Part shown: positions 4,321-24,241 of the stretch, piece by piece
How the letters are laid out: every line of letters starts with the position of its first letter
Numbering within the stretch: position 1 is the first letter of the stretch
Source: a bacterium
Lineage (GTDB): Bacteria; Actinomycetota; Acidimicrobiia; Acidimicrobiales; Bin134
NCBI GenBank assembly: GCA_026709815.1
Contig: JAPOSH010000044.1
Location: 1-47,555 of the forward strand
Direction: 5' to 3'
Length of the DNA stretch: 47,555 bases
Translations under genes and position numbers: made by a program
The notes under the pieces: generated by a model
Databases searched by the model: none
Seen by the model: only the letters and a program-made list of their open reading frames with translations
Told to the model about the DNA's origin: nothing

Positions 4321-4697
<377 letters not shown>

Positions 4698-21478: not shown

Positions 21479-22648
21479 GTGAGCATCGAGCCGTTCGAGA
21501 TCTGCGTCCCCCGAGCCGACCTAGACGACCTACACCAGCGTTTGTCCATGACCCGTTGGCCCGACACCGTGAGGCCGGGTTGGGCCGACGGCGCTTCGGT
21601 GGCTTACATGCAAGATCTGTGCCGACACTGGGCCGACGGCTACGACTGGCGGGCCCGGGAGACCTACCTCAACGCCTTCCCCCAGTTCACCGCCACTGCG
21701 GCCGGCGAGCGGGTGCACTTCTACCATGTGCGCTCCCCAGCGACCGATGCGCTGCCCATGGTGATGATCCACGGGTACATGGGCTCGGTGGTGGAGTTCC
21801 GCGAGATGATGGGACCGCTGTCCGATCCGGCGGCTCACGGCGGCGATCCGGCTGACGCCTTCCACCTCGTGGTCCCGTCGCTGCCCGGCTACGGATTCTC
21901 CGGCCCGACCGCCAACCCCGGCGTAGACGTGCACCGCTGCGCCGAGGCCATCGCCGGGGTCATGGAGCAGTTGGGCTACGAGCGCTACATCGTGCAGGGG
22001 GGCGACTGGGGGGCGCTGGTCACCCGGCGCATGGCGGAGGCCTTCGGCGACCGGCTCATCGCCGCCCACTTCAACATGCTCTTCGCCCAGCCCACGGCGG
22101 AGGAGGCCGCCGAGCAGGCTGAGATGATGGAAGGGGTGACCGAGGCCGAACAGGCGGCCATGGCCCGCTCGCTGGAGGTGATCGCCGACGGCACCGGCTA
22201 CATGGCCATGCTCTCCACCAAGCCCCAAACCCTGGCCGTGGCCCACAACGACTCCCCCGCCGGTCTAGCGGCGTGGTTCATGGAGAAATACCAGCACTGG
22301 TGCGACCTGGAGAACGGCGATCTCGAGAGCGTGTTCACCAAGGACCAGCTACTCGACAACGTGATGCTGTACTGGATCACCGCCACCGCGGCGTCATCGG
22401 GGCGGCTGTATCTGGAGTCGGCCCGCACCGGCACGTCGGCGCTGGACTCCTGGGCCGGTCGGGTGGAGGTGCCCACCGGCCATGCCGTCTACCCTCGGGA
22501 GCTGCTGCAAACCCCGCGGGTGTGGGCCGAGCGCCGCTACAACATCGTTCACTGGGCCGTGCAGCCCAAAGGCGGCCACTTCGCCCCCTTCGAGCAGCCC
22601 GAGCTGTTCACCGACGACCTGCGAGCCTTCGGGCGCCTGTTCCGCTGA
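21479..22648 (+). CDS. Epoxide hydrolase (EHN domain, alpha/beta hydrolase)
   Basis: IEPFEICVPRADLDDLHQRLSMTRWPDTV (EHN), GGDWGALVTRRMA nucleophile region, KGGHFAPFEQPELFTDDLRAF. Confidence 0.92.
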   Translation: MSIEPFEICVPRADLDDLHQRLSMTRWPDTVRPGWADGASVAYMQDLCRHWADGYDWRARETYLNAFPQFTATAAGERVHFYHVRSPATDALPMVMIHGYMGSVVEFREMMGPLSDPAAHGGDPADAFHLVVPSLPGYGFSGPTANPGVDVHRCAEAIAGVMEQLGYERYIVQGGDWGALVTRRMAEAFGDRLIAAHFNMLFAQPTAEEAAEQAEMMEGVTEAEQAAMARSLEVIADGTGYMAMLSTKPQTLAVAHNDSPAGLAAWFMEKYQHWCDLENGDLESVFTKDQLLDNVMLYWITATAASSGRLYLESARTGTSALDSWAGRVEVPTGHAVYPRELLQTPRVWAERRYNIVHWAVQPKGGHFAPFEQPELFTDDLRAFGRLFR

Positions 22649-22651
22649 GGG

Positions 22652-23215
22652 CTACGCGAACCGGGCGGAGCGCATAGCCAAGATGTCGTCCTCGCCGCGG
22701 CCCTCGGTGGCCTCGAGCGCCTCTTCGGGGCCTTTCATGCGCAGCGGGCAGGAAACCGACACGTCCATCACCTGATTGACGCGGCCGAAGGCGATCCAGC
22801 AGCCGATGGACAGGGTCATGTCCATCATCAGCTCGTCGCCGAAGTGCCCGACCATGCGGTCCATGAACGCCTGGTCGATGGCCAGATGGTCGGTGGCGTA
22901 CTTCTCGCAGTACTCCAAGGCATCCCGCTCGGCCTCGCTGTAGCCGTGGTATTGGTCTCGATTGCCGACGTTGAGGTAGTCGTCCTCGCTCAGATCATGT
23001 TGCGCCAACGACGCAACCCGGGTGTCCAGTCAAACCACGCAGTGGTTGATCTGGGCGATCCTCATCCTCAGCAGCTCCCGCAGCCGCACCGAGAGCTTGC
23101 TCTTGTTGTACACCGCCGCGCTGAATGCCGACGCCGGAGCGGTCAGCTCCGGGCACAGCATCCACAGCCGATGCAGCTCCTCGGCGGGGCCATCGGGGAT
23201 CTTGATTCGCGCCAT
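22652..23215 (-). CDS. Candidate selenoprotein: carboxymuconolactone decarboxylase/AhpD-like protein read through an in-frame TGA (Sec) at 23030-23032
   Basis: Track ORFs 23030..23215 and 22652..23008 share one frame separated by a single TGA: ...LRELLRMRIAQINHCVV[TGA]LDTRVASLAQHDLSEDDYLNV...YSEAERDALEYCEKYATDHLAIDQAFMDRMVGHFGDELMMDMTLSIGCWIAFGRVNQVMDV. The TGA falls at the second Cys position of the family's CxxC. Confidence 0.7.
22999..23017 (-). promoter_or_regulatory. SECIS-like hairpin 12 nt downstream of the in-frame TGA
   Basis: Coding strand TGA-CTGGACACCCGG-GTTGCGT-CGTTG-GCGCAAC: 6 Watson-Crick pairs plus one U-G, 5-nt loop with G at position 2 followed by U. Confidence 0.5.
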
Positions 23216-23353
23216 GCCTCCTCCTCGGCCGGAATGCCAAGACTGTACAGTCCCAGACGCCTCCCAGCTCGCACAGTCGCTTCACGAGCAGGCGTTCGGG
23301 CCCGTTGCCGCGACTTGCGGCTGTGCTGCTCGCCGCGGCCTCGGCCTTTTCCG

Positions 23354-24241
23354 TCAGCCCAGATCAGCGTGATTCTTCGGACGGGTGGTGGCGATGGTGC
23401 CGTAGAACACACCGACGAGCACGATGACCGCGCCAACGGCGGCGACAGGGCGGGGGAACTCGCTGAAGAACGCCGCGGCCCAAACTGTGCCCGCCACCGT
23501 CTCGATGGGTGAGAACAAGGCCACATCGGCCACCGGGGCGAAGCGAGGCGCGTTGGACAGTGCCAGTCGGCCGAAAGGGTTGAACACCAGCCCCATGGCG
23601 GCGATGGACAGATAGGCCCGGGCGTCCAACGAAAGCGGCGACGCCCAGTACATCAGCGCCGCCACGGTCAGCACTCCGCCGATGGACAACCCCACCAGCC
23701 GGCTCATGTCGGGATACCGGCGCCACATGGTCAGGCTCACCGAGAAGCCCACAATGGCCACCACGCCCAGCAGGTCGCCCGAGAGGGTGGGCTCGCCCAC
23801 CGAGCTGAACACGATGGCCACGATGCCCGCCAGGGTGATGGCGATGGCAATGGCGATGGCGCGGCTTATGCGCTCCTTCAGCCATATCCAGGCGCTCACC
23901 GCGGACAGCAGCGGCACCGCCGACACGATGGCCACCACATTGGCCACCCGGGTCTCGGTGACGGCGATCACGAAGCAGAGCTGGCTGCCTCCGCTGAGCG
24001 CCCCAATGACCAAGTGCTGCCACCGGTGGCTGCGGAACGCCTCCAGCGGCCCGCAGCCGTCCACCCGATGGCTCAGGCCGGTGTAGAGGGGTACCGAGCA
24101 GCACGCGACCCAGAAGGAGACATCCACGGCATCGGCCTCCGAGAGCCGGATCCAAAGCGAATCGGTGGAAACCGCCAGCATCCCCACTCCGGCGAGCAAC
24201 CAGCCCAGCCGCCGTTGATCATTGGCCCGGGCGGCATCCAT
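23354..24241 (-). CDS. EamA/DMT-family transporter
   Basis: About ten TM segments; internal duplicated EamA-like halves (VVAIVSAVPLLSAVSAWIWLKERISR ... VALFSPIETVAGTVWAAAFFSEFPRP). Confidence 0.85.
   Translation of the reverse strand: MDAARANDQRRLGWLLAGVGMLAVSTDSLWIRLSEADAVDVSFWVACCSVPLYTGLSHRVDGCGPLEAFRSHRWQHLVIGALSGGSQLCFVIAVTETRVANVVAIVSAVPLLSAVSAWIWLKERISRAIAIAIAITLAGIVAIVFSSVGEPTLSGDLLGVVAIVGFSVSLTMWRRYPDMSRLVGLSIGGVLTVAALMYWASPLSLDARAYLSIAAMGLVFNPFGRLALSNAPRFAPVADVALFSPIETVAGTVWAAAFFSEFPRPVAAVGAVIVLVGVFYGTIATTRPKNHADLG

Follow-up and report, generated by a model that had tools for sequence, protein, structure and literature searches.

On the minus strand of the window (the whole stretch of DNA analysed here, 47,555 nucleotides), a reading frame of 187 codons carries a TGA at codon 62 and, shortly after it, a small hairpin; the question that this locus raises is whether the TGA ends translation or is read as selenocysteine, and what part the hairpin plays in this. 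Judged from sequence comparison, the hairpin is a real signal that almost certainly makes this actinobacterium insert selenocysteine in a redox protein. The features concerned are:

22652-23215, minus strand: predicted carboxymuconolactone-decarboxylase (CMD)/AhpD-like selenoprotein gene of 187 codons, one of them an in-frame TGA (from translation, PF02627 and genus orthologs)
23216-23229, minus strand: Shine-Dalgarno-like GCCGAGGAGGAGGC directly upstream of the ATG (read from the sequence)
23039-23041, minus strand: TGC codon 59, the conserved Cys that partners codon 62 in CVVU (every homolog compared has TGC or TGT)
23030-23032, minus strand: in-frame TGA, codon 62, predicted selenocysteine in the second position of CxxU (TGA or TGC/TGT in orthologs)
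23018-23029, minus strand: spacer of 12 nt from UGA to stem, CUGGACACCCGG (from sequence; just as long in the TGA orthologs aligned in A1, below)
22999-23017, minus strand: predicted bSECIS hairpin GUUGCGUC-GUU-GGCGCAAC (from fold, covariation and loss in Cys homologs)
22654-22652, minus strand: the real stop, TAG (from translation)
21479-22648, plus strand: epoxide hydrolase, neighbour
23354-24241, minus strand: EamA transporter, neighbour

The two neighbours suggest no particular pathway, and a search against plasmids found no match. Elsewhere, the window contains a bacterial class A RNase P RNA (4325-4697, plus strand; Rfam RF00010, 225.9 bits).

Read on the minus strand, the sequence runs UGA (23032-23030), CUGGACACCCGG (23029-23018), GUUGCGU-CGUUG-GCGCAAC (23017-22999), with the letters and the 12-nt distance from the in-frame TGA that a preliminary description had given. 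The six Watson-Crick pairs and one U-G pair noted there are correct; RNAfold closes one C-G pair more, which gives 8 bp and a GUU triloop, the alternative being 7 bp with the 5-nt loop CGUUG, at an energy of -9.6 kcal/mol. Published rules for bSECIS elements call for a loop of 3-9 nt with G in position 1 or 2, a stem of 4-16 bp, an apical loop 16-37 nt from the UGA and an energy at or below -7.5 kcal/mol; the loop pattern is N1-G-[G/U]-N-N2. Here the loop begins after 19-20 nt from the UGA and reads C-G-U-U-G, with a pairable outer C-G and with its first G as the 21st nucleotide past the UGA, as described earlier; stem length and energy also lie within the published limits. The earlier impression that spacing and loop fit a bSECIS is thus borne out by all sequence and energy rules checked. 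Rfam reports no family at the hairpin.

Such a fold also arises by chance. When the 16 downstream codons are recoded synonymously, an equally stable, rule-compliant hairpin appears in 0.575% of 20,000 trials, and a comparable hairpin lies downstream of 52 of the 1116 TGA triplets in the window, counted on both strands and in any frame (4.7%); the caveat of the preliminary description, that short hairpins are frequent in GC-rich DNA, is therefore right. By its stability, the hairpin is merely suggestive, and folding by itself was judged insufficient as proof at a background of 4.7%. Eight other frames in the window that combine a TGA with a hairpin were set aside, as they look non-coding (rich in Arg, Pro and Gly and without a Cys context). 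The same background is what speaks for taking the TGA as a plain stop, or as a mutation that disables the gene, so that a pseudogene or a 61-residue fragment is all that is left and the hairpin has arisen by chance in GC-rich coding DNA. We nevertheless consider this very improbable, on account of the protein downstream of the TGA, the residues that replace the TGA in homologs, and the evolution of the stem.

The TGA stands where the second Cys of a CxxC motif is expected (...QINHCVVU-LDTRVASL...); codon 62 aligns with this functional Cys in homologs, including the solved CMD proteins 2gmy and 2ijc. The product belongs to PF02627 (35.4 bits against a gathering score of 23; 1e-8) and scores 20.6 bits with the AhpD core domain TIGR00778, under its cut-off of 27.8. 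In the AhpD motif, a His lies four residues past the second Cys (C-x-x-C-x-x-x-H); in this gene and in nearly all homologs listed, the position is occupied by Arg. From the core score and this Arg, we classify the predicted protein as AhpD-like rather than AhpD. With the AhpD alkylhydroperoxidase of Mycobacterium tuberculosis it shares a redox centre of CxxC type and a related domain family, differing in the same two respects. The best NCBIfam match is NF053654, a YciW-related (seleno)protein family (E 4e-10, residues 28-149), to which it is a relative and not a member, its 39.7 bits falling far short of the cut-off of 310.

Of the 22 genus genomes, 15 have a full-length ortholog, 78-94% identical, with TGA at codon 62 in every case; 14 of these 15 contain selA. 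Where records of close orthologs carry a name, they are MAGs of Acidimicrobiia, for example Candidatus Poriferisocius aerobius. Over the 100 codons past the TGA, protein identity is 81-94% and dN/dS 0.14-0.39 in all ten pairs compared; the downstream part is therefore under selection as protein, and this conservation already contradicts an ordinary stop. In two smaller, near-complete genomes of the same genus (G006 and G017, 1.8 and 2.2 Mb), selA is present and a CMD selenoprotein of this type was not detected.

At the level of the class, where homologs at E 1e-20 or better turn up in 65 of 345 sampled genomes, codon 62 is either TGA or TGC/TGT in the homologs examined, an exchange of CxxU and CxxC that is hard to reconcile with a stop. 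Stem covariation was followed in 17 distinct TGA homologs sharing one common register (alignment A1); stems shifted by one base (L040, L041, L062) and a second subfamily (GCUUCGC-AGGU-GCGAAGC) are left out of it, though the hairpins that these form are just as good. In A1, 93.4% of cells are paired, compensatory changes on both sides occur at five of the eight pairs, and the covariation score is 0.539, against 0.282 +/- 0.035 in shuffles and 0.05-0.11 when the partners are slid by 1-3 columns. Among genus members a single stem pair varies, and the covariation comes mostly from homologs of 37-50% identity. In 16 Cys homologs (alignment A2), 40.6% of cells are paired, equal to shuffles.

The contrast is sharper still by position. 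Under a strict rule (loop 16-21 nt past the codon, -7.0 kcal/mol or lower), a hairpin is found in 38 of 39 TGA genes and in none of 30 Cys genes among 69 homologs; the sole TGA exception, L080, has a weak one (-4.9 kcal/mol). Sec homologs thus keep the structure, and Cys homologs do not. The preliminary description had proposed to compare stem covariation in TGA orthologs with the fate of the hairpin in Cys orthologs, and this comparison proves decisive in favor of its SECIS reading; neither of the outcomes that it had named as counting against it, a hairpin equally conserved in Cys orthologs or one absent from other TGA orthologs, occurred. Taken together, covariation and the distribution between TGA and Cys genes raise the hairpin far above chance, and they also stand against the ordinary stop.

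On a tree of the 69 homologs for which the Sec/Cys residue was masked, about 9 switches of the label are counted, at least 4 of these being forced by well-supported branches. The supported independent contrasts number 4; on average, hairpin and codon change together in 3.8 of them, and in none do they go opposite ways. So small a number cannot bring a sign test to significance.

The in-frame TGA inside a conserved reading frame could also be accounted for by genome-wide reassignment, with TGA read as Trp or Gly, or as Cys through a suppressor tRNA, and without a SECIS. This we regard as scarcely credible: TGA is a normal stop elsewhere in the host genome, as in selB and the neighboring epoxide hydrolase; the window's tRNA-Cys carries the usual anticodon, GCA; the hairpin confined to TGA genes would stay unexplained; and the genome contains a full selenocysteine system. 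In this genome, which is 88.9% complete, selA is directly adjacent to selB, a tRNA-Sec with anticodon UCA lies on the same contig, and selD is present, so that SelA, SelB, SelD and tRNA-Sec(UCA), the equipment on which the SECIS reading depends, are all encoded. The frame of the host selD (L100, G000:C235:258-1202, minus strand) also contains a TGA (GAG-U-AGKL), with a strong hairpin after it; the loop of this hairpin, CCG, has its G at position 3 and so departs from the loop rule that bSECIS elements usually follow. Extending the selB frame brings in a TGA that was weighed as another selenocysteine codon; as it is simply the normal stop of selB, this candidate was rejected. That the hairpin is conserved for another role, such as translational pausing or mRNA stability, of which hairpins as such are capable, has a negligible probability, given that it never accompanies a Cys codon (0 of 30 genes) and that its distance to the UGA is fixed.

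With high confidence, then, we take the best explanation to be a bSECIS element that lies within a CMD/AhpD-like gene, in an Acidimicrobiia bacterium of sponge-associated type, and is predicted to direct selenocysteine insertion at codon 62. With the ribosome at this UGA, SelB-GTP carrying Sec-tRNA(Sec) would bind the apical loop CGUUG of the hairpin that follows 12 nt later and would deliver selenocysteine; translation would then yield not a peptide cut short at 61 residues but a protein of 187, with Cys-Val-Val-Sec as its redox centre. The protein would then probably reduce a peroxide or disulfide substrate via a Cys59-Sec62 selenenylsulfide, a thiol-dependent reaction of this kind being the likeliest chemistry.

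CMD selenoproteins with CxxU have been known since 2005, when one with PF02627 was described from the Sargasso Sea (PMC1088965); an AhpD-like 2 selenoprotein with pfam02627 and CxxU followed from the Global Ocean Sampling in 2008 (PMC2398784), and the type is tabulated in a 2026 review (PMC13188914). As far as descriptions allow the comparison, the present gene resembles the Sargasso Sea protein in Pfam domain, CxxU and a bSECIS directly past the UGA, and AhpD-like 2 in domain and motif. The Sargasso Sea sequences are unassigned metagenome reads, whereas the present gene comes from an actinobacterial lineage with Sec machinery and has tested covariation. Since the type was described earlier, we count the gene as a new example of it, and a well-supported one by its sequence.

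Across the class, selA exceeds its curated cut-off in 228 of 345 sampled genomes, so that selenocysteine use is common in Acidimicrobiia. Of the sampled genomes that have a Sec-CMD, 16 of 17 contain it, compared with 13 of the 27 that have a Cys-CMD (Fisher p 0.0026, uncorrected for relatedness); in G003 and G208, two incomplete assemblies with Sec-CMD, no selA was detected. A covariance model of the SECIS finds no second copy in the host genome; the model is specific to its own subfamily and cannot count the selenoproteome. The second CMD-like selenoprotein subfamily, from the same genus (L030 at G000:C169:10064-10480, L024, L028-L036), is about 24% identical and has the motif CNIU and its own SECIS, given above. 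One genus genome has a further Sec-containing CMD paralog (L026, G015:C8:103607-104080; 37% identical) with the SECIS GCUGCGU-CGGGA-ACGCAGC.

Standard annotation would probably give a truncated ORF here or lose the second half of the gene; with the Sec codon and SECIS recognized, a redox enzyme conserved in most genomes of the genus is recovered. This agrees with the reported enrichment of selA and selB in sponge-symbiont genome bins (PMC5649159), the only paper that the literature search found to name both Acidimicrobiia and selenocysteine. Wide selenocysteine use and repeated Sec/Cys switching form a more interesting context than the single gene, and the switching, with Cys genes devoid of the hairpin, makes a clean case for comparing how SECIS elements evolve. 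On balance, we lean towards the view that Acidimicrobiia have a broad selenoproteome, hardly described in the literature searched, with CMD/AhpD-like selenoproteins of no fewer than two subfamilies, one of which shows repeated exchange between Sec and Cys in both directions, the SECIS following the codon. If this is true, the class would constitute a natural series for the evolution of SECIS elements inside coding DNA.
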